Below, one piece after another: positions 3,740 to 63,140 of a stretch of 64,000 bases of DNA. Below the pieces are notes generated by a model that saw only the letters and a program-made list of their open reading frames with translations, ran no database searches and had not been told where the DNA came from. A program made the position numbers and the translations under genes. The DNA comes from a virus, in IMG/VR virus record IMGVR_UViG_3300028178_000001, positions 28,108-92,107 of that record; one strand, 5' to 3'. Position 1 is the first letter of the stretch, and each line of letters opens with the position of its first letter.

Positions 3740-4387
3740 ATGAAACCTTTAGAAATCGGGAAACGATACGGACGATTAACAGTTATAGCTGAGGGTGAGC
3801 GGCGTGTTTGCCCTTCGGGGAAAAGCAGAAGGGTTGCTAAATGTCAATGTGACTGTGGGGAAATTATTGGTGTATCAATTTGGTCACTTAACAGTAAAAC
3901 AAAACCTACGCTTAGTTGTGGTTGTCTTACAATTGAAATGATGAAAATTACAAAAACGAAGCATGGGCTTATAAATCATCCTTTATACAGAAAATTAATG
4001 GGGATGAAAAAACGTTGCTATAATCCTAAATATGGGCAATACCATCGTTACGGCGGACGCGGTATAAAAGTTTGTGAAGAGTGGTTGAATGATTTTATGT
4101 CATTTTATAATTGGGCAATGGCAAATGGATGGGAAGATGGACTTGAAATAGACCGAAAAGATAATGATGGGAATTATGAACCAAGCAATTGCAGGTTTGT
4201 GACAAGCCAAGAAAACACACACAATAGGAGAACATCAAAACTTAACTGGGAAGATGTGCACAATATAAGAAACGCTAAACTTTTGAATCCAGAGACAAAA
4301 AATACTGAATTAGCTAAAACTTTTGAAGTTAGTAGGCGCACTATTAACAATATTTTAAACAATGAAAGATGGAGAGAAGCAGTATGA
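3740..4387 (+). CDS. Free-standing HNH-type homing endonuclease with C-terminal HTH
   Basis: This is a 215-aa member of a common phage HNH-like family. The N-terminal half has a zinc-ribbon-like cluster, CQCDCG then CGC (about residues 33-62). The core follows with MKKRCYNP, YGGRGIKVCEEW and EIDRKDNDGNYEPSNCRF. The last 45 residues resemble a helix-turn-helix (ELAKTFEVSRRTINNIL), used by these enzymes for DNA targeting. The start at ATG 3740 follows AAAAGGAATTTGAG. Its stop overlaps the SbcC-like start (ATGA, 4384-4387), so it lodged between sbcD and sbcC as a mobile gene. It is a close paralogue of the protein at 10350-11006. Confidence 0.85.
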   Translation: MKPLEIGKRYGRLTVIAEGERRVCPSGKSRRVAKCQCDCGEIIGVSIWSLNSKTKPTLSCGCLTIEMMKITKTKHGLINHPLYRKLMGMKKRCYNPKYGQYHRYGGRGIKVCEEWLNDFMSFYNWAMANGWEDGLEIDRKDNDGNYEPSNCRFVTSQENTHNRRTSKLNWEDVHNIRNAKLLNPETKNTELAKTFEVSRRTINNILNNERWREAV

Positions 4388-9534: not shown

Positions 9535-9796
9535 CGTATCAGATGCAGTTATAGGACATTTTTGGGAGGAACCGCCGGAAGATAGTTGGGAGTTTTGGGC
9601 TTTTGTTTGGCCGGTTAAGGCAAAAGTAGGAGACACAATATACTTCTACCACGATAAAAAGCTAATTGCGCAAGCAGTGATAGCAAAGATTGAGAAGCCC
9701 GGAGAAAGTGAATGCGAAGCAACCGGCAATTACCGGAACCGATGGAAGGTTTATTGGCGTCAAGAGAGTTTCGTCTGTTTAATATCTAAAAATTAA
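9524..9796 (+). CDS. Small ASCH/PUA-like protein
   Basis: I place the start at ATG 9524, preceded by GAGGAG, rather than at the upstream in-frame ATG 9491. The product is 90 aa. The pattern FWAFVWPVKAKVGDTIYFYH followed by IAQAVIAKIEKPG resembles the beta-barrel of ASCH/PUA-like or EVE-like RNA-binding domains. I base this on strand pattern and the KxGDxIYF motif only. It ends 222 bases before the next start, an interval filled by a structured RNA. Confidence 0.5.
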   Translation: MKINVSDAVIGHFWEEPPEDSWEFWAFVWPVKAKVGDTIYFYHDKKLIAQAVIAKIEKPGESECEATGNYRNRWKVYWRQESFVCLISKN

Positions 9797-9837
9797 AGAC
9801 AAAAAAATAATTTGGATAATATAAAAAAACATATTAA

Positions 9838-10018
9838 TTTTCCGCCGTCTAAAATTACGAACGGTAAACCCGCTCCGTCAACGCGGTACTTTTATTTTAA
9901 AGTACAGAGCGATTTAATTTCAAGCCAAGACTCCGCTTTTCGTGAGAGAGCGGGTATCTTTCGTAGATATAGACAAGTCTTGGCGTTTTTTATTTGTCTA
10001 AAATTACGAAGGTTCACC
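9838..10018 (+). ncRNA. Candidate structured RNA, copy 1 (leader of small-protein gene)
   Basis: About 180 nt precede the start codon at 10019. Visible helices: ccgt/acgg near 9845-9864; acccgctc (9868-9875) with gagcgggt (9948-9955); gtacttt/aaagtac (9887-9905 region); gccaagac (9924-9931) with gtcttggc (9977-9984), followed by six Ts; and a small tatct/agata hairpin (9955-9969). The acccgctc and gccaagac helices interleave as X-Y-X'-Y', a pseudoknot. The hairpin loop ctttcgta (9958-9965) can pair with tacgaagg (10005-10012), which contains the Shine-Dalgarno, or with tacgaa at 9856-9861. A perfect 15-bp direct repeat flanks the core (9847-9861 and 9996-10010). A second copy at 57768 keeps every helix. 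Confidence 0.7.
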
Positions 10019-10363
10019 ATGAACTCAACCCAACAAAACCCACTATTTGCGATCCGCAAAAAACCCGATCAGTCCTTCGCTTGTGTCCTTTCAGAAAAAC
10101 TTGATGTGCTTGCAGTTGTTGTTAAGTGCATCGCCGACACCAACAATTACAACTTGGAGAAGCTTAATCATAGTCGTCTTCCCCGCGCTCTTGAGTATGC
10201 GTTCGAGGATTTTAATGAAGTGTTTGAGCTTTATCACTACGAGAACTTTGAGCTAAATATTCCTACGGAGAAGAAGCTGCTGGAGTTATCGGAGAAGCTA
10301 AACGAAACGCCATACAATATTATTGAGAAGATGCTGAAAGGGGTGCAAGATGAATCCAATTAA
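10019..10363 (+). CDS. Small protein downstream of structured RNA, paralogue A
   Basis: The 114-aa product begins at ATG 10019 with GAAGG six bases upstream; the open frame further left runs through the RNA and is not used here. It is clearly homologous to the protein at 57946-58284, sharing QNPLF-x(2-3)-RKKPDQS, YENFE and the C-terminal pattern ELSEKL...IEKMLK. The C-terminal third looks like two helices that might bind nucleic acid, but no family is recognised. It overlaps the following HNH gene by 14 bases. The fixed partnership with the upstream RNA in both copies suggests RNA-controlled or autoregulated expression. Confidence 0.75.
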   Translation: MNSTQQNPLFAIRKKPDQSFACVLSEKLDVLAVVVKCIADTNNYNLEKLNHSRLPRALEYAFEDFNEVFELYHYENFELNIPTEKKLLELSEKLNETPYNIIEKMLKGVQDESN

Positions 10364-11006
10364 TATAAAGATTGGGGATCGGTTTGGAAGGTTGGTGGTT
10401 ACAGGAGAAGCTGACCGACACATAACCAGTACAGGCCAAATTAAAAGAATAATTAGATGCCAATGTGATTGTGGTAGGGATACGAAAGTATTTCTTTCGG
10501 CTTTAAGGAATAGTAAAATACCTACTAATAGTTGTGGGTGTTTACAAGCTGAGCGTGCAAAAAATGCTAATACACAACACGGATTAAGCCAACATTCTTT
10601 ATATGGGAAGTTAGAGGGGATGAAAAAACGATGTTATAATCCAAAAGTAAGTGGATACCACCGTTATGGTGGACGCGGAATAAAGATATGCGAAGAATGG
10701 CTGAATAATTTTATGTCATTTTATAATTGGGCGATGGCTAATGGATGGAAAGAGGGTTTACAAATAGATCGAATAAATAATGACGGCAACTATGAACCAA
10801 ATAATTGTAGATTTGTGACTTCAGCAGTGAACAATCGTAATCAAAGTACGACAAAACTAACGTGGGATGATGTTAATGAAATACGTAACACTAAGCTTCT
10901 AAACCCAAAAATTAAAATAAATGAATTAGCCGCAAGTTTCGGGATAAAAAAAACTACGGTTTCAAAAATATTAAACAACAAAATTTGGCAAATAAGATTA
11001 AAATAA
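10350..11006 (+). CDS. HNH-type homing endonuclease, close paralogue of 3740-4387
   Basis: The 218-aa protein has the same build as the first HNH gene: zinc-ribbon-like CQCDCG and CGC, then MKKRCYNP, YGGRGIKICEEW, QIDRINNDGNYEPNNCRF and a C-terminal helix-turn-helix (ELAASFGIKKTTVSKIL). The central 80 residues are nearly identical between the two copies, while the HTH differs, as expected if the copies recognise different sites. It overlaps the small RNA-linked gene by 14 bases and lacks the long structured leader seen at 3582-3739. Confidence 0.85.
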   Translation: MNPINIKIGDRFGRLVVTGEADRHITSTGQIKRIIRCQCDCGRDTKVFLSALRNSKIPTNSCGCLQAERAKNANTQHGLSQHSLYGKLEGMKKRCYNPKVSGYHRYGGRGIKICEEWLNNFMSFYNWAMANGWKEGLQIDRINNDGNYEPNNCRFVTSAVNNRNQSTTKLTWDDVNEIRNTKLLNPKIKINELAASFGIKKTTVSKILNNKIWQIRLK

Positions 11007-35393: not shown

Positions 35394-37111
35394 GCGGCAG
35401 GATAGGACAGTGCGATAGTTTGGAGTTTATGAAAAAGCAAGAAGATTTTTCTGCTGATATTATCTATTGTGATCCGCCGTATGCGTTGGGGAGTGAAGTT
35501 ATTATACGCAAAGACGGGAAACCGGATTATAAAAAAGCCGTAGATTTTATGAATAAATGGGATATGCCAAACGGCGATTATTGGGAGGCTTGGTTTAAGG
35601 AAGCATTTAGAGTATTAAAGTACGGCGGGCGTGTAATAATGTTTGGAATGGACCGCCAATTAATGCTGAATAAATATTATGCTTGTTACGCCGGATTTGA
35701 GGAACAGCAAAGTTTGTATTGGTATTTTATTTCGAACTTTCCGAAAGCTACTGATTTAAGCAAAATGATTGACCGAAACGCAGGAGCGGGAAGGGAAGTT
35801 GTTGGAATAACTTCTATCCCAAATGGGAAAGAAAGTGCATACCAAGGTGAACGATATAAAGAAAAAAGGGAAACTGCTTTTGGGGTTATTCAAGACCAAC
35901 CGGATAAAACCGCGCCATTCACAGAGCTTGCAAAAAAATATGAGGGATACAAATATTCTATTTCACCATTAAAGCAAACGAACGAAACGATAATGGTTTT
36001 TCAAAAGCCATATAAAACCGGAAGTTGTTTGCACGACACTTTTGCGTATGAAAATGGAGATAGGGAATGTTTATGCGGGGCTTTGAATATTGAGGGAAAT
36101 AGAGTTGGATTCGCTTCAAATGAAGATGAAGCGGAGAGTAAAAATAAAAATCAACATGAAGATTTTGGCACAAAGCCAATGACGGGTAATAATGTTTACG
36201 GCGATTTTTCTATGATCGGACAAAAGAATTATAATCCTCCCGGTCGTTATCCTTCGCAAACTTTTATTGAGTGCATTTGTGATGAAGTAGTTATTAAAAA
36301 GAATGAGGCGCAGCCATATTCTTACAGCGGAAAAGAATACCAGAACAAAGAAACATCGATGTTTAACGGAGACAAACCACAAGCGCCAAGTAATTATAAT
36401 GATAAAGGAAGCGGCCAGATACACACGAATCCGAATTGTCCGTGTGCAAGATTAGATTTACAAAGCGGAGAATTGCAAAAAGGGAAAGGGGACTATGTAC
36501 GCAAAAACGGAGCGGAACAATTTTTAAGCGCAATGGGGCAAGATAAAACAGACCCGCCAAATAAAATATCAGATACCGGCGGATGCAGCAAGATTTTACA
36601 CAAGTGTGAGTTTGATGAAGAAGAGCATGATATTTATTTTTATTTCCCGAAGGTGAGTAAGGCTGAACGAAACGGCGGACTGGAGGAGCTATCACTAAAA
36701 GGAAGGGAACCAAAGGGCAATAATCAAGGAGTGAGATATTGTAAAGATTGTGGTTTAACAGATAATGGGACCAATAATCATAACAATTGCTCTGGTATAT
36801 TTGAATATAAACTTTGTCAGTCTGTTAAGAATAACCATCCCACATTAAAACCAATTGCGTTAAACAAAAGAATTTTATCTCTGTTCAAGACACCGAACGG
36901 GCAGAAAATACTTTATCCTTTTGCCGGAACCTTTTCAGAAGTAATAGGGGGATATTTAGCGGGGTTTACAAATTTTGAAGGTTGCGAGTTAAAAGAAGAA
37001 TGGATAACCATAGGCGAAGCAAGGTTTAGTTACTGGACAAATAGAGAGAAGAAAGAAGCTGCTGAAAATGAAGATCAGTTTAATTTATTCACCCAGACCG
37101 AGGCAGCATAA
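35390..37111 (+). CDS. DNA methyltransferase (DPPY type)
   Basis: The 573-aa product begins with IIYCDPPYALGSE (motif IV, about residue 24) and carries its SAM-binding motif at the C-terminus (LYPFAGTFSEVIGGYLAG, about 508), preceded by NHPTLKPIALNKRIL, so it has beta-class order. The DPPY form usually acts on adenine N6 or cytosine N4. A Cys-rich middle region (CLCGALN, CICDEV, CPCARLD, CKDCGL) may bind zinc. It abuts the DarB-like gene (TAATG, 37110-37113), suggesting a joint anti-restriction role. Confidence 0.85.
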   Translation: MSGRIGQCDSLEFMKKQEDFSADIIYCDPPYALGSEVIIRKDGKPDYKKAVDFMNKWDMPNGDYWEAWFKEAFRVLKYGGRVIMFGMDRQLMLNKYYACYAGFEEQQSLYWYFISNFPKATDLSKMIDRNAGAGREVVGITSIPNGKESAYQGERYKEKRETAFGVIQDQPDKTAPFTELAKKYEGYKYSISPLKQTNETIMVFQKPYKTGSCLHDTFAYENGDRECLCGALNIEGNRVGFASNEDEAESKNKNQHEDFGTKPMTGNNVYGDFSMIGQKNYNPPGRYPSQTFIECICDEVVIKKNEAQPYSYSGKEYQNKETSMFNGDKPQAPSNYNDKGSGQIHTNPNCPCARLDLQSGELQKGKGDYVRKNGAEQFLSAMGQDKTDPPNKISDTGGCSKILHKCEFDEEEHDIYFYFPKVSKAERNGGLEELSLKGREPKGNNQGVRYCKDCGLTDNGTNNHNNCSGIFEYKLCQSVKNNHPTLKPIALNKRILSLFKTPNGQKILYPFAGTFSEVIGGYLAGFTNFEGCELKEEWITIGEARFSYWTNREKKEAAENEDQFNLFTQTEAA

Positions 37112-40100
37112 TGAAATTATTTGGCAGAACAATAGTAAAAAGTAAAGTAATTGTTGAAAATCTTGATGATAAGTTGAAGGCTGAAAAGACTTTCAAACTT
37201 CAGGATAGAATTTATTTTAAAGGTCTTGATATTGCAGTTGAGAATAAAAAGGGAAGCATACGGCGCGGTGTAAATGATGATGGTACAAAATGGGAAACGT
37301 TTATGCACATTCCTTACGGCTATATTAGGCGAACGGAGAGTGTTTCGGACGGTGAGAAGATCGATTGTTACATTGGAGAAAATAAGGATAGTGAAAAAGT
37401 TTTTATTGTAAATCAGAATAACCCTTACACGGGAAAGTTTGACGAACAAAAGTGCATGTTGGGATTTGACACGGCAGAAGAAGCGAAGAAGGCATATTTG
37501 AAACAGTATGACAATCCTAAGTTTTTCGGGAGTATAAAAGAAATGAGCTTTGATGAATTCAAGAAAAAAGCACTTTCAACGGAAGATAAGCCGAAACTAT
37601 TAAAAGCGTTCGGGCTAATGTTGAAAGCGTTCGGTACGCAACTTGGAATGTTTGATGGAGTTATCGAAGGGCAAACGAAGCAGAAAGACGGGCATACTTA
37701 TGAAGTGAGGCGGAGTAAAAAGAATCCGCTAGTAAAGAGATTATTTAGGGCCGATAAGGAAGAGAGCAAACCAAAGGAATTGAGTTTATTTGATCAGAAG
37801 GTGAGGGTAGGCAGCAGGCAATCGGCAGTAGGAAGAAAGTTGCAAGTAGAAAGTGGAAAGTCGAAAGAGGATTTGCTTTGGGAAGAGTTGGAGAGTATAA
37901 AGCAAGCTCGTATAGATAGACCAAGAAAGAATGATTGGGACCGACAAAAGAAAATGCTGAGGATACAAGATGAAATTATAAAATTGGGGAACGATAAAAA
38001 GGGAGGGGGGAACGATCATTTGGGGTTATCTAATTATAAAGATGATTTGACAATGGATAACACACCGATTGCGCCGGAAGTGCTTGCAGGCAATGTGTTA
38101 TCGGGATATTATGATAGAAAAGAACCGGACTATGAAGAGATAGAAGATCTTTTTAACCAGCCGCAAGAACCGAAAAAGGAAACACCCAAACCAAAAGAAC
38201 CGAAGGCAGAAATTAAAGCGGTGAAAGGGAAGAAGAACCGGAAGGAGATTAATTCTAAGGTTGAGGAGTTATTAAAGACAAAGAAGAATGAAGAGATGAG
38301 CGCCGAGGATATTGAACTATTAGCGCAGTACACCGGACGCGGCGGGTTGTTAGGAGATACGCTTGAGGATATCTCGCTTAATGAATTTTACACACGTAAG
38401 GATGAAGCGGAATTTATTTGGGATATGATAGGGAAGTTAGGTTTTAAGGGAGGAAATGTTTTGGAGCCAAGTTGTTTTATAAAAGGGACAAACATTATAA
38501 CAGAAAAAGGAATAAAAACAATTGAGAATATTGAAATTGGGGATATGGTTTTAACTCATAGGACCATATTTCAAAAAGTATATAATACAACTATCAAGAA
38601 AACAAAAGAAATTGTTGAAATTGAAATTCCAAATTCACCAACCACTATACAAACCACAAGAGAACATCCCTTTTATGCAGTTAAAGTTCCCAAGTGTTCA
38701 ATAAAACATAGACCTTGCCATGTTGGGCATTCATCAAACGACGAGAAATGCGAAAAACGATGGCAAGAGTATACACCACAATGGATACCGGTGGGCGAAT
38801 TAAACCAAGGGGATTATATAATTGACGTTTTTGATAAAACGGAAGAAAGAAAAGAGTTTATAGAATTAGAAATAAAAAATTTGCTTAATTCAAAAACTCC
38901 GGAACGGATTGCGATTACTGAAGAACTATTAAAAATCATAGGTTTATACATTTCGCAAGGGTGCTCTGATGGTAATTGCGTTATATTCACCATCCATGAA
39001 GATAGAAAGGAATTGCATGATTTAATTATAAATTATTTTAATGGACTTGGTATAAAAGCAACATTAAAAATAAAAAAGAATAATAAATCAATTGAAATAA
39101 GAGTAAATAGTTCACCTCTTGCAAGATTGCTTTTGGAGAATATAGGGAGATTATCTTTTAATAAAAGCATACCAGGATGGTTAATGAAACTTTCGATTAA
39201 CCAACAGAAACATTTAATATGGGGATTAGCGAATGGGGATGGGCATATAGATAAGAAAAATTTTTTTAGTTATGATACAACAAGCAAGAATCTTGCTGAA
39301 CAAATAAAAAGAATTTTTTATAGACAGAGTATTGTCCCTTCTTATAGAACAACTAAAATTAAAAAGGGGAAAAAGTTTATTAATGGTAGAGAAGTTATTT
39401 CAAAACACGAAATGTACCATGTTATTGTTGCTGGTTTTTATTTTGAAAAGTTTTTAGAAATTATATATAACCAGAAAAATGAGAAAAGGGCAAAATCATC
39501 ATCAAGAACGGGTTTTGTAAGGGGTAATTATGCCTATATAAAATTACAAAAAATCAGGATAAAAGAGGTTGAAGAAACCGAGGTCTATAATTTTTCAGTT
39601 GAATCAGATGAAAGCTATTGCATACAAGGTGCTACTGTCCATAATTGTGGAACGGGGATTTTTGTTGAGACCGCACCGGAGAAAGCATTAGTAACCGGGA
39701 TTGAGATCGAGGAAACAAGCGGACGTATTGGGCAGATACTCCACGGCAATGAACATGATATCAGAATTCAGAGCTTTGAGCAGTTTATAAAAGACTATGA
39801 CAATATGGGGGCAGATTTAGAGGGGGGAGAATATGACGCGATAGTTGGGAATTGTCCGTTTGGTAAAAGGGGATTGAGCGCAATGGATGATAGGGAAAAG
39901 AGTGATATAAAATTCCATGAGCAATATTTTATTGATAGAGGTTTAGATATGTTGAAGCCGGGGGGAATAATGGCAATGATTGTTCCAACGAGTATTATGG
40001 ATAACCAACTTAATCAATGGCGGGGAGAGATAAATAAAAAAGGAGAATTTTTAGGAGCGATAAGAGTACCAACCGGAGCATTCAAACACACAGACGCGCA

Positions 40101-43100
40101 AGTAACAACAGACATAGTTTTCTTTAAGAAAAGACCGCCGGAAGTGATCGAGCATTTGAATAAACTTTCTAAGGAAGAACTTGGGGAAGCTTATGATGAT
40201 ATGGTGTTGGACGCTGATTTTGTTTCGGGAAATTTCTTTAAGAATAATTCTGAGTACGCATTAGGCACGGAAACAAGTGGAATGTTCGGGATGAAGATTT
40301 GGAAGGGGGATGTTACAAAGGCTGATCTTGAGAAAGTCGGTGAGTTATTAAATCATGAAGCAAGGGATTACAACAGTTTAGGTATTGATGTTGGCAAATA
40401 TGGTGAGTTGGAAAAAGAACTTGAACCGGGAGACGTAAAGATATTAAACGGAAGGACTTACATACTTAATAAAAACCATAGATGGGAAAGGTTGAAAGAT
40501 CAGGAAGTAGTATTACAAAACTTACCGGAAGATATTAAAAAACTTGGTATTAAGAGTTGGGATGAATGGAGAATTAAAAGTGAAGACACAGCTTATTTAT
40601 ATGGTTTGAATAAAGACCAACTAAAACTTTTCGGACAAACAAGGATAGTAAATGAGCTAGATGGATACAATGGTAAGAGTGATTTTCAGACGGAATATTT
40701 GACTAAGGGAGTTATTCTTGGTTTAGCTGTAAAGGATTTTAGGAAGGAATTGCAGGACGGAAGATTATCCGCTGAAGAGGCACAAATAGAAGCGGGGAAA
40801 CTGAAGATATTACTGAAGGATTTTATTGAAAAGTATGGACACCCAATTGATAATTTGAAGTTGAATAAATTTTTTAGGAACAGCGGAAATACGCCACTCT
40901 TGGATTTAGCAGGAAGCTATGATAAGAACGGGAACACAATCAAGATGTTTGATGATCCGCTGTCTTTTTATAAAGTTTATCAAACAAAAAGCGAGATTGG
41001 AACGGTGGATAGGAATGATATTGTTTCAGTGATTAGTTTTCTTTTTGCAAATAATTTTCCAACGGATTATCAAACCGTAAGAGGCGAATATGAAGGGGAT
41101 GGAGATATTGAAAGAGAACTTGCTTACAGCGATGAAATTTATTTTGATGAAGAAGGAAATTATAAACCAAAAGAGGAAGTTCTTTACGGTTATATTTACG
41201 AAAAAATAGACGCTTGGGAAAAGCAAAGAACCGAACTGAAGAAGGAAGCGAAAAACGATAAGTTAAGCGATAAAGAAAAAGAACTTAACACACAAAAGAT
41301 GCGGAAACTTGAAGATCAGATAATTGAGGCGAAAACGAGAGCAAATATTAGAGAGATTAAACAACTTCCGATAATGTTAAGCGATGCAGGGAGTATTTAC
41401 GATATAGGCATCTTAAACAAATATTTGGAAGAAAAGATAGGAGCGCATTTCTTAGGTGAATTACGCAAGGATGAAAAGAGCGGGTTTATTCTCCCGGTTG
41501 ATCAGAGTTCAGCAAATTTGTATTTAAGCTACGCTGATATTACCAAAGAAGGTAAATCAACAGAAGTAAAAAAAGATTTACGCAATTTGTTTAACAAAGA
41601 TGAGCACCCCTTGTTATTTATGATATTGAATAAGATGAACGGGTTGGGTTTACCGGCATTACGAACTGAGGGAGGTATAGCAAAGAAAGAACAAGTGTTA
41701 CAACTTGAAACCGATTTTAAGCAATATTTGTCAGATAGTGAGGAAGCTGATAAAATTGCGGATACTTATAATAGGTTGTTCAATTCGTACATACAAAAAA
41801 CGTATGATGAAACACCAATTGAGGGGATAAAGCATTTTGCCTATGATAGAGTAGTTGGAAAAGACGCAAGCGGAAAGGATATAACCGGAAGAGATAAGGC
41901 GGGCGGCCATACATGGGCAACGGTTCGCCGTATGTATGAACAGGGCAAAGGCATGATAGCGCACGGGGTAGGTTTGGGGAAGACGTTAGAAGCGTTGATC
42001 TTAGTTCTCTTAAGTAAAGAGACGGGCCGGGTAAGTAAACCGAGTATAGTAGCGCCGAAATCGGTATTGTTAAATTGGGTAGCAGAAATTGAGAAATGGA
42101 CGCAAGGGGTAAATTATTTATTGGTAGGGTATAGGAAGGATTCAACCGGTGCATGGATTGAAGAAACGAGGGAAGAAAAGGAACTAAAGTTACAACGGGC
42201 GGCGAACGAAGAATTTGATATGATTTTAATGAGCCGTGATTTGTTCGGGACAATTGATTTTTCGCCGGGGACGAAAAAGAATATGCTTAATGAATTGATG
42301 GATAAATATTACCCGGAAGGGAATAGGTTGTCAACGTTTTCTGATAAGAATAGTAAGCATGCGAAGAACGTTAAAAAGAAGAGAGATACTTTGTTAAGAA
42401 ATCTTTCTTCAATGATGAATATTCCGGGACCATTAGGAGGAATTTATCTTGACAATATAGGGATAGATCTGCTGGTGAGAGATGAAGCGCATGATACGAA
42501 AAATTTGTTAGTGCCAATGGAAAATGAGATTAGCGGTGTAAACAGCAGCACATCTCAAAGAGCGATGCACAATTTATTCGCAAGCAAGATCATTCGCGGG
42601 CAAAATAATGATATGGGTTATTTTGCATTAACGGCAACGCCAATAAGTAATTCACCGTTAGAAGTTTTTAACATGATGGTCCCGTTTGCAGAGAAGGAGC
42701 TTGAAAAGTTAAACGTACAGAACATGGATGATTTTATTGGAAGATTTGCCGATATTGATAATATCCCGACTACAAATGCAGATGGAAGAGTTTTTGTAAA
42801 GAATAAGTTTGCAGGTTGGAAGTCAGCTGAGGCATTAAGAAATACTTTCTTCCGTTTTGTTGATTATAAAACCAAGGACGATGTTGAAAGCGTAAAAGCA
42901 AATATCAAATTCCCCAAAGAGAAAGCCGGAAACGTACTGAGTGATTTAAATGAAGGGCAAAGGGAATTAGTAAAACATTGTAAACTACGGTTATGGGCAT
43001 TAAGCAGCCGAAAGTTTGATAAAGATTCAGGCGAGTTGGTATTTGATGCTGATAAATTGCAGGAAAAAGTTGCAAATGGTTTAATTTCGCAGAATGAAGC

Positions 43101-45072
43101 AAATGAAGTGCTAGATTATTATGAAAATGAATATCTGCCAACGTTTAATGCCTTAAATGGAAACCGGAATGAAGATGAGCCGCCGAATGATGATCACTTT
43201 TTTAAGGTGCAGCAAGATTTAATAAAGGCAACGAGTGATTTGCCGTGGTATAAAGATAAGCACAGCGAATATTCAAAAGAAGTGGACGATAGTTTTGTAT
43301 CGCAGCACAGTGATTTAAAGAAATTCGCACAGTTAAATGAGAATGCACTCTCGATTCATAACAGCGGAGGGAAACAAATTATTTTTGCGATCAATACAGC
43401 ATTACACGATAAGATAAAGAGGGATTTAGTAAAATCGGGGATCCCGGAAAATGAAATTGTAATTGTAAACGGGAAGACGGTTAGCAGCTCGAGTAAAAGA
43501 TTACAGATAAGTAAAGCTTACAACGATGGAAAGTATAAGGTTGTAATTGGTAATTATGCGACAATGGGAGAAGGATTAAACTTTAATTACATGACAAGCG
43601 ACATTCATCACTTGCAACCAGCTTGGAACCATTTACAAATTGAACAAGGGAACGGGAGAGGGATACGGCAAGGGAATCCGTTAGACAGTGTAAATACGCA
43701 TTACTATTTGACGAAGGGGAGTATTGACGGATTTATGAATACCAAGATTATGGATAAGGCGGGAATGGTTGATAAGTTCTTAAAAGGAGAAACAAGCCGT
43801 TGGGATGATGAAGTACAATTAGAGGCTGATGAAATGATGATTGAGTTAGCTGATAACCCGGAGCAGGCAAAAGCATTGTTAGCGTTTAGGAATAAAAAAT
43901 TACAGGACGCACTTGCAGAACAGCAACGACAATCGAACTATAAACAGTTGGACCGACTTTATGAAGTAAAAAGGAAAATGGCAGGGATTGAGGAGAAGAC
44001 TTCCAAGAAATTTCAGATGATGCAGCAGGAAGAAAGAAGTTTAACCGAGAAACTTATTGAAGCAGATTTTGAGCATAAAGGAAAACTTGATCTTAATAGA
44101 ACGCCGGTAATACTCCCAGGAATAAATAAAGTTGTCCCAATTGGAAGTATTTTGGGAGGGAGTGACGGCGAATTTTATGTGGTTGAGGATTATGCGCCAT
44201 CTACCCAAAGAGTAAAGATAAGAACTTACAAAGCGGGGACGCAAGGGGATATGGTCGCAACACGGGCAATAAGCGCAAAAGATCTTGATAAAGAGTTTCC
44301 TGCTTTGTATAAGGAAACTGATTTGGATTTAGGCGGGATGTTTAATAAAATTATTGAGGATAATGACGAAGTAGGATTAAATTTTGTTGCTAAGATTCCG
44401 AAGGAAATTTTACAGGCAAACAAGGTAAAGCTTCTTGAAAAACTTAAGGAAAGCGATGAAGTGTTATATCAAACTATGGATGGGAATTATAATGTAGCTG
44501 ATTATGAAGACGCAAAAATAGAAATGGCAACCGAGGGAGGAAAGATCATTTTCCCACAGGAGAAAGTAGAATTCTCTAAGATACTTAATGAGCTGATAAA
44601 ACAGAATAAACCGCGTCAGCAGTACGGGCAAGAATATTCCCGGTTCAGAAGGTTTAAAAATTTAGCCGTCTCAATTTATGGTGAGAATTATGAGAACGCG
44701 ATTAAAAAAGAAATTAAGCGGTTGAACGGAGAAGCAACGGAAACAAGTGTAGCAATACATACAACGGGAGCGCAGTATAAAAAAGAGTTAATGCATCTCT
44801 ACGATAAAGGCTATCTAAGTGATTGGAATTATAAACAAATAACGCAGGGGAAAGCATGGGATGAAATGTCAATGTTTAACAATGCTCTTAGGGCAGAGTT
44901 TCTAGATGTTTACAATATTAAGGACGACTATGGGGAGTATAGAATAAACCCGAGTTTGATAACACCGGAAATGCTTGATAGGGCAAGGGCAATTGATGAA
45001 ATTAAGAGTGATGACAACAAAGATTTATTAGAGGATATACTTACAAATAAAATGAGAGGAGTAGCGGCATAA
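37111..45072 (+). CDS. DarB-like DNA methyltransferase-helicase polyprotein with intein
   Basis: The reading frame encodes 2653 aa. Residues about 60-155 look like the phage inorganic-pyrophosphatase-like domain (HIPYGYIRRTESVSDGEKID). The N6-adenine methyltransferase motif I (LEPS/CGTGIF) is split by a 391-aa intein at residue 455. Motif IV is GNCPFGKR, a variant of NPPF/NVPF. An SNF2-type helicase follows: GVGLGKTLEAL (about 1617), RDEAHDTKN (about 1790), ALTATPISNS, and QIEQGNGRGIRQGN (about 2176). The layout matches phage P1 DarB, an internal head protein that protects injected DNA from type I restriction. After splicing the protein would be 2262 aa. Confidence 0.88.
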   Translation: MKLFGRTIVKSKVIVENLDDKLKAEKTFKLQDRIYFKGLDIAVENKKGSIRRGVNDDGTKWETFMHIPYGYIRRTESVSDGEKIDCYIGENKDSEKVFIVNQNNPYTGKFDEQKCMLGFDTAEEAKKAYLKQYDNPKFFGSIKEMSFDEFKKKALSTEDKPKLLKAFGLMLKAFGTQLGMFDGVIEGQTKQKDGHTYEVRRSKKNPLVKRLFRADKEESKPKELSLFDQKVRVGSRQSAVGRKLQVESGKSKEDLLWEELESIKQARIDRPRKNDWDRQKKMLRIQDEIIKLGNDKKGGGNDHLGLSNYKDDLTMDNTPIAPEVLAGNVLSGYYDRKEPDYEEIEDLFNQPQEPKKETPKPKEPKAEIKAVKGKKNRKEINSKVEELLKTKKNEEMSAEDIELLAQYTGRGGLLGDTLEDISLNEFYTRKDEAEFIWDMIGKLGFKGGNVLEPSCFIKGTNIITEKGIKTIENIEIGDMVLTHRTIFQKVYNTTIKKTKEIVEIEIPNSPTTIQTTREHPFYAVKVPKCSIKHRPCHVGHSSNDEKCEKRWQEYTPQWIPVGELNQGDYIIDVFDKTEERKEFIELEIKNLLNSKTPERIAITEELLKIIGLYISQGCSDGNCVIFTIHEDRKELHDLIINYFNGLGIKATLKIKKNNKSIEIRVNSSPLARLLLENIGRLSFNKSIPGWLMKLSINQQKHLIWGLANGDGHIDKKNFFSYDTTSKNLAEQIKRIFYRQSIVPSYRTTKIKKGKKFINGREVISKHEMYHVIVAGFYFEKFLEIIYNQKNEKRAKSSSRTGFVRGNYAYIKLQKIRIKEVEETEVYNFSVESDESYCIQGATVHNCGTGIFVETAPEKALVTGIEIEETSGRIGQILHGNEHDIRIQSFEQFIKDYDNMGADLEGGEYDAIVGNCPFGKRGLSAMDDREKSDIKFHEQYFIDRGLDMLKPGGIMAMIVPTSIMDNQLNQWRGEINKKGEFLGAIRVPTGAFKHTDAQVTTDIVFFKKRPPEVIEHLNKLSKEELGEAYDDMVLDADFVSGNFFKNNSEYALGTETSGMFGMKIWKGDVTKADLEKVGELLNHEARDYNSLGIDVGKYGELEKELEPGDVKILNGRTYILNKNHRWERLKDQEVVLQNLPEDIKKLGIKSWDEWRIKSEDTAYLYGLNKDQLKLFGQTRIVNELDGYNGKSDFQTEYLTKGVILGLAVKDFRKELQDGRLSAEEAQIEAGKLKILLKDFIEKYGHPIDNLKLNKFFRNSGNTPLLDLAGSYDKNGNTIKMFDDPLSFYKVYQTKSEIGTVDRNDIVSVISFLFANNFPTDYQTVRGEYEGDGDIERELAYSDEIYFDEEGNYKPKEEVLYGYIYEKIDAWEKQRTELKKEAKNDKLSDKEKELNTQKMRKLEDQIIEAKTRANIREIKQLPIMLSDAGSIYDIGILNKYLEEKIGAHFLGELRKDEKSGFILPVDQSSANLYLSYADITKEGKSTEVKKDLRNLFNKDEHPLLFMILNKMNGLGLPALRTEGGIAKKEQVLQLETDFKQYLSDSEEADKIADTYNRLFNSYIQKTYDETPIEGIKHFAYDRVVGKDASGKDITGRDKAGGHTWATVRRMYEQGKGMIAHGVGLGKTLEALILVLLSKETGRVSKPSIVAPKSVLLNWVAEIEKWTQGVNYLLVGYRKDSTGAWIEETREEKELKLQRAANEEFDMILMSRDLFGTIDFSPGTKKNMLNELMDKYYPEGNRLSTFSDKNSKHAKNVKKKRDTLLRNLSSMMNIPGPLGGIYLDNIGIDLLVRDEAHDTKNLLVPMENEISGVNSSTSQRAMHNLFASKIIRGQNNDMGYFALTATPISNSPLEVFNMMVPFAEKELEKLNVQNMDDFIGRFADIDNIPTTNADGRVFVKNKFAGWKSAEALRNTFFRFVDYKTKDDVESVKANIKFPKEKAGNVLSDLNEGQRELVKHCKLRLWALSSRKFDKDSGELVFDADKLQEKVANGLISQNEANEVLDYYENEYLPTFNALNGNRNEDEPPNDDHFFKVQQDLIKATSDLPWYKDKHSEYSKEVDDSFVSQHSDLKKFAQLNENALSIHNSGGKQIIFAINTALHDKIKRDLVKSGIPENEIVIVNGKTVSSSSKRLQISKAYNDGKYKVVIGNYATMGEGLNFNYMTSDIHHLQPAWNHLQIEQGNGRGIRQGNPLDSVNTHYYLTKGSIDGFMNTKIMDKAGMVDKFLKGETSRWDDEVQLEADEMMIELADNPEQAKALLAFRNKKLQDALAEQQRQSNYKQLDRLYEVKRKMAGIEEKTSKKFQMMQQEERSLTEKLIEADFEHKGKLDLNRTPVILPGINKVVPIGSILGGSDGEFYVVEDYAPSTQRVKIRTYKAGTQGDMVATRAISAKDLDKEFPALYKETDLDLGGMFNKIIEDNDEVGLNFVAKIPKEILQANKVKLLEKLKESDEVLYQTMDGNYNVADYEDAKIEMATEGGKIIFPQEKVEFSKILNELIKQNKPRQQYGQEYSRFRRFKNLAVSIYGENYENAIKKEIKRLNGEATETSVAIHTTGAQYKKELMHLYDKGYLSDWNYKQITQGKAWDEMSMFNNALRAEFLDVYNIKDDYGEYRINPSLITPEMLDRARAIDEIKSDDNKDLLEDILTNKMRGVAA
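37802..37871 (+). repeat. In-frame heptamer repeat burst in DarB-like gene
   Basis: Degenerate 7-bp units (gcagtag, then gaaagtg and gaaagtc types) run through the coding sequence without breaking the frame, encoding a Ser/Arg/Gln/Val-rich linker (GSRQSAVGRKLQVESGKS). This resembles intergenic heptamer repeats and probably inserted into a tolerant linker. Confidence 0.6.
38473..39645 (+). mobile_element. Intein with LAGLIDADG homing endonuclease in methyltransferase motif I
   Basis: The 391-residue intein starts at Cys 455 (after EPS) and ends in VHN before the extein +1 Cys. Block A is CFIKGTNIITEKGIKTIENI, block B TTREHPFY, block F VYNFSVESDESYCI and block G ATVHN/C. The endonuclease has two LAGLIDADG-like helices, LLKIIGLYISQGC and LIWGLANGDGHID. 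A Cys/His group (PKCSIKHRPCHVGH...CEKRW) between blocks A and B is unusual and could bind zinc. Removal restores VLEPSCGTGIF, the SAM-binding motif. All splicing residues are present, so it should be active. Confidence 0.95.
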
Positions 45073-45452: not shown

Positions 45453-45466
45453 AACCTCACCCCTTG

Positions 45467-45491
45467 CCCCTCTCCTTATGAAGGAGAGGGG
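45467..45491. repeat. Palindrome cccctctcctt...aaggagagggg
   Basis: Eleven-bp arms with a 3-nt loop, flanked by cctcacccctt. A near-identical element lies at 58297-58321 and a diverged one at 46268-46290, all in gaps between transcription units. It has no T-run and is read as a host-type interspersed repeat. Confidence 0.65.
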
Positions 45492-56928: not shown

Positions 56929-56945
56929 AAGAATTTGGTTTAAAT

Positions 56946-57119
56946 GTTAATATACAGTTTGCTTTGTAAAGTAACATTTAATATATTTCGAGCGCTTACA
57001 AAAGGAATTTAGCAAAATGAAATTAAGAACCCTTGTTACAGATGTGAACGTTTTCCCTCAAAAGAATTCCGTTGTAAGCACACGTTTGAGCAAGGGTTCT
57101 GTTATTATTGGAGTTTGTG
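56946..57119 (+). promoter_or_regulatory. Structured leader of third HNH gene
   Basis: It begins gttaatatacag and taacatttaatatattt, closely matching the first HNH leader at 3582. Two interleaved inverted repeats follow: gcttacaaaaggaattt (56994-57010) with aattccgttgtaagc (57065-57079), and agaacccttg (57026-57035) with caagggttct (57091-57100). The X-Y-X'-Y' order matches the first leader although the repeat sequences differ. Confidence 0.5.
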
Positions 57120-57749
57120 ATGCCATATAAAGACAAACAAAAACAAAAGGAATACTATGCAGAATATCACTCCGAACACAGAGACAAGAGAAACAAGCAA
57201 AACGCATTATACAAAGTAGAACATAAACAAGAATTAGAAGAACAAGGTAAACAGTATAGGCTTGAACACAAAGAAGAAATAAAAGCGAAAAAAACAAAAT
57301 ACCGTTTTGATAACATAGAAGAAATTAGAAAATATAAGGCTGTATATTCATTTACGAATAAAGATAGAATTAGAACACATCGGAGGGAATATAAAAAACG
57401 CAGAAAATTAATTGATCCATCATTCAAAACAAAATGTTATTTAAGGAAAAGAATCTGGTATGCTTTTAATAGAATGGGCTTAAACAAACCATGTAAGACC
57501 GAAGAATTGCTTGGTGCAGACTTTGAAACAGTAATGCGGCATATAGAATCGCAGTTTATCTTTGGCATGAGTTGGGAAAATTACGGTGAATGGCATATTG
57601 ATCACAAAAAACCACTAGCTTTGGCAAAAACCGAGAAGCAATTGATTAAACTTTGCCATTACACGAACTTGCAACCACTGTGGGCAGAAGAAAACCGGAG
57701 GAAACAAGCAAAAACCGATTACAAAATAAAAGAAGTACGATTTGGATAA
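57120..57749 (+). CDS. HNH homing endonuclease (classical HNH)
   Basis: I start it at ATG 57120, with GGAG six bases upstream. The 209-aa product has a basic N-terminal region of repeated Y-x-x-x-H/K-K-x-E units, probably helical DNA-binding. The C-terminal nuclease has WHIDHKKPLALA, then CHYTNLQPLWAEENRRK, the standard H-N-H ligands. It differs from the two zinc-ribbon HNH proteins at 3740 and 10350 but shares their leader architecture (first copy). The second RNA-small-ORF module lies directly downstream. Confidence 0.85.
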   Translation: MPYKDKQKQKEYYAEYHSEHRDKRNKQNALYKVEHKQELEEQGKQYRLEHKEEIKAKKTKYRFDNIEEIRKYKAVYSFTNKDRIRTHRREYKKRRKLIDPSFKTKCYLRKRIWYAFNRMGLNKPCKTEELLGADFETVMRHIESQFIFGMSWENYGEWHIDHKKPLALAKTEKQLIKLCHYTNLQPLWAEENRRKQAKTDYKIKEVRFG

Positions 57750-57767
57750 TTCAGAGAAAGGTAGTAG

Positions 57768-57945
57768 TTTTCCGCCGTCTAATAATCCAGGCGGTAAACC
57801 CGCTCCGTAATTGCGGTATTCTTATTTTAAAGAGTACAAGCGAATTAATAATAGCCAAGACTCCGCTTTTCGTGAGAGAGCGGGTATCTCCTGGAGATAT
57901 AGACAAGTCTTGGCATCTTTTCTGTCTAAAAATTCAGGAGTTCCT
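57768..57945 (+). ncRNA. Candidate structured RNA, copy 2 (leader of small-protein gene)
   Basis: The helices of copy 1 are kept: acccgctc (57798-57805) with gagcgggt (57878-57885), gccaagac (57854-57861) with gtcttggc (57907-57914), a gtattctt/aagagtac stem with compensating changes, and tatct/agata. The small loop changes from ttcgta to cctgga, and both potential partners change with it: tccagg at 57786-57791 and caggag, the Shine-Dalgarno, at 57935-57940 (paired by ctcctg, 57888-57893). The 37 bases from agccaagact to gggtatct are identical in both copies although the downstream proteins have diverged. Confidence 0.7.
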
Positions 57946-58284
57946 ATGTCCACATCCCAAAACCCACTATTCTTGCATCGCAAGAAGCCCGACCAATCAT
58001 ACGGTTGGTTACTTTCCGATAAACTTCAAGTATTGGAAGCTGTTGTAAGATGCATCAGCCTCACCAACGAACAAGGGATAAATGACCTTGGCACAACATT
58101 ACTACCCTTAACTCTTGCGAATGTTTTTGAGGAGTTTAGAGAGATTTACAACCACTACTTTTATGAGAACTTTGAATTTTCTATTCCGGTAGAAAAGAAA
58201 CTGATTGAGTTGTCAGAAAAACTTCACACCACCCCCAACATGTTAATAGAGAAGATGCTGAAGAGTATCGAGATAACCTCTTAA
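57946..58284 (+). CDS. Small protein downstream of structured RNA, paralogue B
   Basis: The 112-aa product starts at ATG 57946, five bases after CAGGAG. It shares QNPLFLHRKKPDQS, YENFEFSIPVEKKL and the C-terminal ELSEKL...LIEKMLK pattern with the protein at 10019-10363. Roughly half of aligned residues agree by eye. No known domain. It is followed by an interspersed palindrome with a T-rich tail. The tight link with the upstream RNA indicates a conserved RNA-protein module. Confidence 0.75.
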   Translation: MSTSQNPLFLHRKKPDQSYGWLLSDKLQVLEAVVRCISLTNEQGINDLGTTLLPLTLANVFEEFREIYNHYFYENFEFSIPVEKKLIELSEKLHTTPNMLIEKMLKSIEITS

Positions 58285-58296
58285 CCTCACCCCTTA

Positions 58297-58328
58297 CCCC
58301 TCTCCTTAAAAAGGAGAGGGGTTTTCTA
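58297..58328 (+). repeat. Palindrome cccctctcctt...aaggagagggg with T tail
   Basis: Eleven-bp arms (58297-58307 and 58311-58321) with loop aaa, followed by ttttct. It is near-identical to 45467-45491 and could also terminate transcription after the small gene. Confidence 0.65.
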
Positions 58329-58340
58329 TTTTAAACAATC

Positions 58341-62684: not shown

Positions 62685-63140
62685 ATGGACAGCAGAGAGA
62701 AAGTATCTTTTGAAGTAGAAGATAAAACATTTGAGTTTTACGCAGAACCCACCGCGATAGAAAGCAGGCAAATACGAAACGTAATGGGGGATTTGTTGGG
62801 CGGACTTAATAACCTTTTAGATCTTGAAAATTTGATAAGCCGCGAGTATAGTGCATACTATGACAAACTCGATAAGTTACCTGGCAGAAAAGAAGCTGAG
62901 GGGAAGAAGGATGAAGTATTTGAAGCGATGGTTCGTGACCAAAAGTTTTATGTAAAACTCATCAGCGTGATCAATGAAAAGAAAAACTTACAGCAGCTTG
63001 CATTCTTAAAGGTAATGTGTGTTAAACCGTATGGATATGATTTCTATTCACAGAAGGAAGAATTTTTAAGAAAGATCGTTATAGAGTTAGATGCAAAGCT
63101 TGATGGAGTAAAAAAAAAGTCAGTCACTACCGAAGCCTAA
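62685..63140 (+). CDS. Tail assembly chaperone (G-like product)
   Basis: The 151-aa product starts at ATG 62685 with AGAGGAAG upstream. It is helical and charged, with FEFYAEPTAIESRQIRNVMG near the N-terminus. It lies between tube and tape measure, and ends in VKKKSVTTEA just past a run of nine A. The position and the frameshift signal identify it as the shorter of a lambda G/GT-type chaperone pair that chaperones the tape measure during tail assembly. Confidence 0.78.
   Translation: MDSREKVSFEVEDKTFEFYAEPTAIESRQIRNVMGDLLGGLNNLLDLENLISREYSAYYDKLDKLPGRKEAEGKKDEVFEAMVRDQKFYVKLISVINEKKNLQQLAFLKVMCVKPYGYDFYSQKEEFLRKIVIELDAKLDGVKKKSVTTEA

Follow-up and report, generated by a model that had tools for sequence, protein, structure and literature searches.

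Two copies of a structured leader and small open reading frame in a phage genome suggest a cis-acting switch with a duplicated Shine–Dalgarno region

The window analyzed here, a stretch of 64,000 nucleotides, corresponds to bases 28108-92107 of a 92,107-bp IMG/VR phage record. All positions refer to the window, and the leader elements, genes, and segments described for the two copies lie on its + strand. A 64-kb self-search showed that the window contains exactly two units, copy 1 and copy 2, in which a leader of about 170 nt is followed by a small open reading frame (ORF) with its own Shine–Dalgarno sequence (SD) and ATG. Copy 1 consists of an RNA at 9838-10018 and an ORF at 10019-10363, which encodes 114 aa; copy 2 consists of an RNA at 57768-57945 and an ATG-initiated ORF at 57946-58284, which encodes an orphan protein of 112 aa. 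This confirms a preliminary description of the DNA, which had noted a structured RNA before a small ORF in two copies. A promoter scan at both copies recognized none. A terminator-like sequence at 58284-58330 (CTCACCCCTTxCCCCTCTCCTT..AAGGAGAGGGG) recurs almost unchanged at 45453-45491 and is also present in related phages.

The proteins of the two copies are 55% identical. Comparison of their genes gave a dN of 0.40 against a saturated dS of about 2.1 (dN/dS about 0.19), which indicates purifying selection on both ORFs; the copies appear to have separated long ago or to have come from different donors. Searches of Pfam, PHROGs, PADLOC, NCBIfam, PDB sequences, and phage and plasmid collections returned nothing useful for the protein, the best match being phrog_27883 (E 0.003, function unknown), and profile searches recognized neither a ligand-binding nor an RNA-binding domain. 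AlphaFold models of the proteins are all-helical and of low confidence (mean pLDDT 53 and 65), and no fold match was found for them. A ribbon–helix–helix repressor, suggested by the appearance of the C-terminus, was rejected, as RHH_1 (PF01402) and related profiles gave no match while their controls worked, and the low-confidence models contain helices only.

An HNH gene lies beside each copy, downstream of copy 1 and upstream of copy 2, as originally reported. The gene next to copy 1 (10350-11006; phrog_374, E 1.5e-61) begins with a start codon that lies within the last part of the small ORF, and the HNH/endonuclease VII-like gene next to copy 2 (57108-57749; phrog_28061, phrog_1035) is located directly upstream of the leader. 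Their products, of 213 and 218 aa, match stand-alone HNH or endonuclease VII profiles. Six related records were found via the terminase. One of them, G006, is near-identical to the window and contains copy 1, and its contig as placed ends short of the copy 2 position; the other five carry neither the small protein nor the RNA. The segment that unites the RNA, ORF, and HNH gene of copy 1 (9776-10993) is absent from four related phage records, and in the relative G002 the genes that flank this position are only about 16 bp apart, which argues that 9776-10993 is a single insertion. The earlier suspicion of mobility is thereby supported, with copy 1 and its HNH gene inserted together relative to an almost empty site. 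Similarly, the 1.3-kb segment with the HNH gene, RNA, and ORF of copy 2 (56938-58282) has no counterpart in four relatives. Since the two HNH neighbors belong to different families, their link to the module is one of shared cargo and not of fixed partnership. Judged from these sequence comparisons, the module is horizontally acquired cargo adjoining HNH endonuclease genes.

Several further features were observed in the surrounding DNA. The region 56938-58282 is a cargo hot spot downstream of a 349-aa gene, where both inspected relatives, L138 and L142, have other small genes; one of these, a gene of 80 aa (MTTIHEKIAKTIPAEF...), is conserved between them. Within it, a frame of 37 codons at 57017-57130 (MKLRTLVTDVNVFPQKNSVVSTRLSKGSVIIGVCDAI) contains an inverted repeat (AACCCTTG...CAAGGGTT) and overlaps the HNH start at 57108/57123; it is a possible leader of the upstream HNH gene. 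Elsewhere, the segment 3650-4437, which is absent from four related records, contains a lone HNH gene (3740-4387) of the same family as the gene at 10350 and represents a separate homing-type insertion that has no RNA module. A 2653-aa ORF at 37111-45072 contains an apparent intein (... VHNC), and its part 38470-39638 has no counterpart in four related records. Finally, an ARAGORN call of tRNA-Ser(tga) at 62789-62871 lies inside an ORF (62685-63140) and is probably false.

The leaders fold better than dinucleotide-shuffled sequences (z -4.1 for copy 2 and z -3.5 for copy 1). The copies agree completely in two blocks (37 and 20 nt), whose persistence, although dS of the ORF is saturated, argues that the leader is constrained as RNA; on this comparison it is conserved as an RNA. 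Its reading as coding sequence, for which the frame is open in copy 1, was rejected, because a stop interrupts this frame in copy 2 and the identical blocks span codon third positions while synonymous sites of the ORF are saturated. The leader had been described as pseudoknotted. The long-range helix in question, formed by ACCCGCTC and GAGCGGGT, is indeed present in both copies (57798-57805 paired with 57878-57885 in copy 2; 9868-9875, again ACCCGCTC, paired with 9948-9955 in copy 1), but it is invariant. A pseudoknot topology like that of group I or HDV ribozymes was rejected, as the lengths of the joining segments are incompatible with it and Rfam gives no match. A local hairpin of 8 bp (GTATTCTT..AAGAGTAC, 57816-57837) is found in copy 2, with a 7-bp equivalent (GTACTTT/AAAGTAC) in copy 1.

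Toward the ORF, each leader contains a 9-bp stem. In copy 2 its strands are GCCAAGACT (57854-57862) and AGTCTTGGC, the latter followed by the T-rich tail ATCTTTTCT (57906-57923 for both), which together have a terminator-like appearance. In copy 1 the same GCCAAGACT/AGTCTTGGC stem closes a three-way junction domain (9924-9984), which is followed by the T-run GTTTTTTATTT (9985-9995). The stem end gtcttggc and the subsequent gttttttattt in copy 1 and atcttttctg in copy 2 are present as previously noted. The T-run makes a convincing terminator-like end in copy 1 but a weak one in copy 2, where only four T stand in a row. Because the stem closes over a three-way junction, it is not a textbook intrinsic terminator; it is absent from the output of the terminator scan, which permits loops of up to 8 nt.

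A feature that the preliminary description did not mention is a 15-nt direct repeat of the form GTCTA-N4-N6 at both ends of each leader, present as a single pair about 147 nt apart. In copy 1 the 5' repeat GTCTAAAATTACGAA (9847-9861) is found again, with 15 of 15 positions identical, at 9996, within the 3' repeat region GTCTAAAATTACGAAGG (9996-10012), which overlaps the SD. In copy 2 the 5' repeat GTCTAATAATCCAGG (57777-57791) and the 15-nt 3' repeat GTCTAAAAATTCAGG at 57924 agree at 13 of 15 positions, and the 3' repeat region GTCTAAAAATTCAGGAG (57924-57940) overlaps the SD of the ORF, AGGAG. The start regions contained in the 3' repeats thus read ACGAAGG..ATG in copy 1 and CAGGAG..ATG in copy 2. 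The repeat hexamer differs between the copies, being TACGAA in copy 1 and TCCAGG in copy 2. The repeats are probably not target duplications, since the insert borders lie elsewhere and the nearly empty site of G002 has no repeat.

In each copy, a hairpin loop and the junction that follows it form the reverse complement of both repeats. This guide is CTTTCGTA-GATA-TAGAC in copy 1 (9958-9974) and CTCCTGGA-GATA-TAGAC in copy 2 (57888-57904), with the pairing core TTCGTA-GATA-TAGAC and CCTGGA-GATA-TAGAC, respectively. In copy 2, for example, TCCAGG of the 5' repeat is complementary to the loop CCTGGA, and GTCTA to TAGAC. The copies share the junction half and differ at four positions of the loop half; all four differences are compensated in both repeats. 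The guide forms 11 of 11 pairs with the 5' repeat in both copies, with four two-sided compensatory changes, and 13 of 13 pairs with the 3' repeat, with four two-sided changes and one change from A-U to G-U; this covariation is one pairwise evolutionary comparison of two independent sequences, in which gene conversion may couple the 5' repeat to the 3' repeat. When the register is slid by one to three columns, guide–repeat pairing falls to about 25-46%. Cognate duplexes have energies of -12.3 to -18.4 kcal/mol, compared with -5.9 to -8.8 kcal/mol when guides and repeats are swapped between the copies. Neither copy yielded the arrangement in any of 20000 dinucleotide shuffles, random substitution leaves both repeats paired at P ~2e-5, and 2.1 Mb of phage sequence, scanned for the same 4-4-4 spacing with at most one mismatch, contained only this module.

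The two repeats are not equivalent partners. A conserved CT before the guide hexamer adds two pairs, which form only with the 3' repeat and reach into the SD, and this identifies the loop as an anti-SD element and the 5' repeat as a decoy of the SD region. Thus, a segment of each leader is complementary to the SD of the following gene and has an alternative partner. In the window, no further 15-nt target site of the guide was found above chance, which argues for action in cis.

Searches for homologues with RNA patterns and profiles found no third independent copy in IMG/VR, INPHARED phages, PLSDB plasmids, or GTDB genomes, and Rfam contained nothing relevant either at the gathering threshold or at E 10. 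Scans of viral and genome contigs for the protein and for RNA patterns yielded as sole homologue another, almost identical record of this phage (L005/L032); all conclusions therefore depend on two independent sequences. Other RNA pattern matches (L006-L213 and L214-L220) were attributed to chance by a covariance model and a guide–repeat test. A weak model match in L185 (E 0.04) falls in a region that looks coding and contains no repeats, and a site of similar geometry in the related phage G004 (L149:3348) lies inside a coding gene; both were rejected.

We consider it somewhat probable that each copy acts in cis, as a 5' leader that controls translation of its ORF through competition of decoy and SD for a single anti-SD loop. 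The guide would have two mutually exclusive partners of nearly the same sequence, of which the 5' repeat, the decoy, would be transcribed before the 3' repeat, the ribosome-binding region of the ORF. Pairing of the guide with the decoy nests directly outside the 8-bp ACCCGCTC/GAGCGGGT helix; stacked on this helix, it would produce a compact RNA with a free SD. Pairing with the 3' repeat would instead bury the SD in a long hairpin and silence the ORF. The 9-bp stem and T-run, located between guide and SD, are superfluous in this cis-switch model; they would offer an exit resembling a terminator, by which the leader may be set free as a short RNA, and the leader might also control transcription read-through into the ORF.

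Constrained folding gave similar energies for the decoy-paired, SD-paired, and three-way-junction folds (-47.4, -49.6, and -49.5 kcal/mol, respectively, in copy 1; -51.1, -55.8, and -53.3 kcal/mol in copy 2). The three folds thus lie within about 2-5 kcal/mol of each other, which is the energy balance that a switch needs. Neither guide pairing appears in the minimum free energy fold calculated for the entire leader, and in copy 2 the guide hexamer is partly paired inside its own hairpin (7-bp stem, 3-nt loop). We infer from these features that the pairing switches translation, and likewise infer the direction of the switch and its effector. The preliminary description had also raised autoregulation of the module. 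Regulation in cis is supported by a loop that pairs, and covaries, with the SD region of the ORF, whereas the protein as effector is an analogy.

In translational riboswitches, SD, anti-SD, and anti-anti-SD pairings are mutually exclusive, and the same switching logic may apply to this leader, which matches no known ligand class in Rfam. Among phages, the closest parallel is the gene 32 leader of T4, T2, and RB69, where gp32 regulates its own translation via an upstream RNA pseudoknot. In T4, this leader pseudoknot is bound by the gene's own product (PMC3014915); it is small and nucleates cooperative protein binding over an unstructured, A+U-rich ribosome-binding site. After this example, our first guess is that the effector of the present leader would be the ORF's own product. 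Unlike gene 32, the leader described here has its SD region in duplicate, with the SD and this duplicate as rival partners of one anti-SD loop, and the role of the protein is proposed by analogy. Phage leader helices that cover the SD in the surroundings of homing endonucleases are likewise known from I-TevI, Aeh1 mobE, and T4 segB (PMC3014915). There, the endonuclease gene itself has a simple hairpin, whereas the present leader, with its decoy repeat, stands before a different ORF.

Other readings have to be weighed against the cis-acting switch. The preliminary description had proposed a type III toxin–antitoxin-like module. Type III loci are defined by tandem repeats of 34-36 nt in 2.8-5.5 copies (PMC5086642), a terminator, and a ToxN-type endoribonuclease (PMC8860590). 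ToxIN, CptIN, and TenpIN share with the present module the order of a pseudoknot-capable RNA, a terminator-like stem, and a small ORF; the module differs from them in lacking both the tandem 34-36-nt repeats and a ToxN-type protein. The preliminary description had itself remarked on both differences, and rightly so, as Tandem Repeats Finder (score 30) found no tandem repeats in either copy and the protein has no Pfam, PADLOC, or NCBIfam match, distant structural homology being still conceivable. The ToxN_toxin profile gave no match in the phage record and was silent in its control genomes too. Membership in type III therefore fails on the array and on the protein, and structure prediction, with its low-confidence helical models and no fold match, lends the toxin–antitoxin half of the proposal no support. 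A looser version is unlikely but deserves consideration, in which the terminated leader would serve as antitoxin by binding the small protein, and this protein, as the toxin, would cut the A-rich repeat centers to free a single pseudoknotted unit in the manner of ToxN and ToxI. Besides the layout and the acquisition of the cargo in two places, its strongest argument is the repeated segment at both ends of the unit, which resembles a processing site: known ToxN enzymes cut AA^AU, GAA^AU, and AAA^AA (PMC8860590), and the AAAAU in both copy 1 repeats and in the 3' repeat of copy 2 fits these cuts. The 5' repeat of copy 2 (CTAATAATCC), however, contains no AAAU, the unit of about 150 nt is single and not arrayed (compare PMC5086642), and no match to ToxN_toxin or any defense family was found. 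A processing site would also leave unexplained why the repeat hexamers track the guide loop and why the pairing reaches into the SD.

It is quite unlikely that the leader is a trans-acting small RNA that ends before the ORF and uses its anti-SD-like loop to repress other phage or host messages, with the ORF as a read-through partner such as a chaperone. The T-run behind a strong stem in copy 1 is compatible with such an RNA, the copy 2 loop contains the general anti-SD sequence CTCCT, and the 5' repeat would act as an internal seal of the loop. However, 15-nt target sites are not above chance in the window, the loops of the two copies differ strongly and each matches its own flanks, and covariation with the SD in cis would go unexplained.

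The recognition of both flanks by one guide could also be taken at face value. There is a slim chance that the module is a phage ribonucleoprotein whose re-programmable guide (5 nt fixed and 6 nt variable) would specifically recognize a target repeated at its two ends; it would be a new type of RNA–protein toxin–antitoxin, or its RNA would be cut or excised where the flanks match the guide. We regard as very unlikely a metabolite riboswitch or attenuator of an unrecognized class, which would control a phage accessory gene with no autoregulation and thus differ from the cis-acting switch in its effector only. The three alternative folds of similar energy and invariant unpaired blocks such as CCGCTTTTCGTGA and GGTAA are in line with it, but no Rfam class matches and the ORF has no metabolic assignment.

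The least probable reading is an RNA-guided mobile or processing element, in which the guide would recognize the flanking repeats as DNA or RNA targets, as do the guides of group II introns, IS110 bridge RNAs, and omega RNAs, with the HNH protein acting in trans. In its favor, the guide matches both flanks of each copy and has changed along with them, and both copies are in acquired segments next to HNH genes. Against it, the ends of the insert (9776-10993) and of the repeats (9847-10010) differ, the G002 site has no repeat, the two HNH genes come from unrelated families, no Rfam intron or HEARO match was found, and the guide finds its complement on the RNA's own strand. Specific known elements of this kind were rejected as well: HEARO/OMEGA (IscB) has no Rfam match, and the HNH proteins have stand-alone HNH or endonuclease VII profiles in place of an HNH+RuvC effector, while a group I or group II intron is contradicted by the absence of any Rfam intron match even at E 10 and by the intergenic position of the insert, whose nearly empty site joins two intact genes.

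According to a 2010 review, the pseudoknot of T4-type gene 32 may be the only viral pseudoknot involved in translational autoregulation (PMC3014915). A leader that carries a decoy of its own SD, with decoy and SD kept complementary to one loop despite sequence drift, would, if true, represent a second and architecturally different phage solution. The two copies further suggest that small regulatory modules of RNA and ORF are carried between related phages as cargo next to HNH endonucleases.
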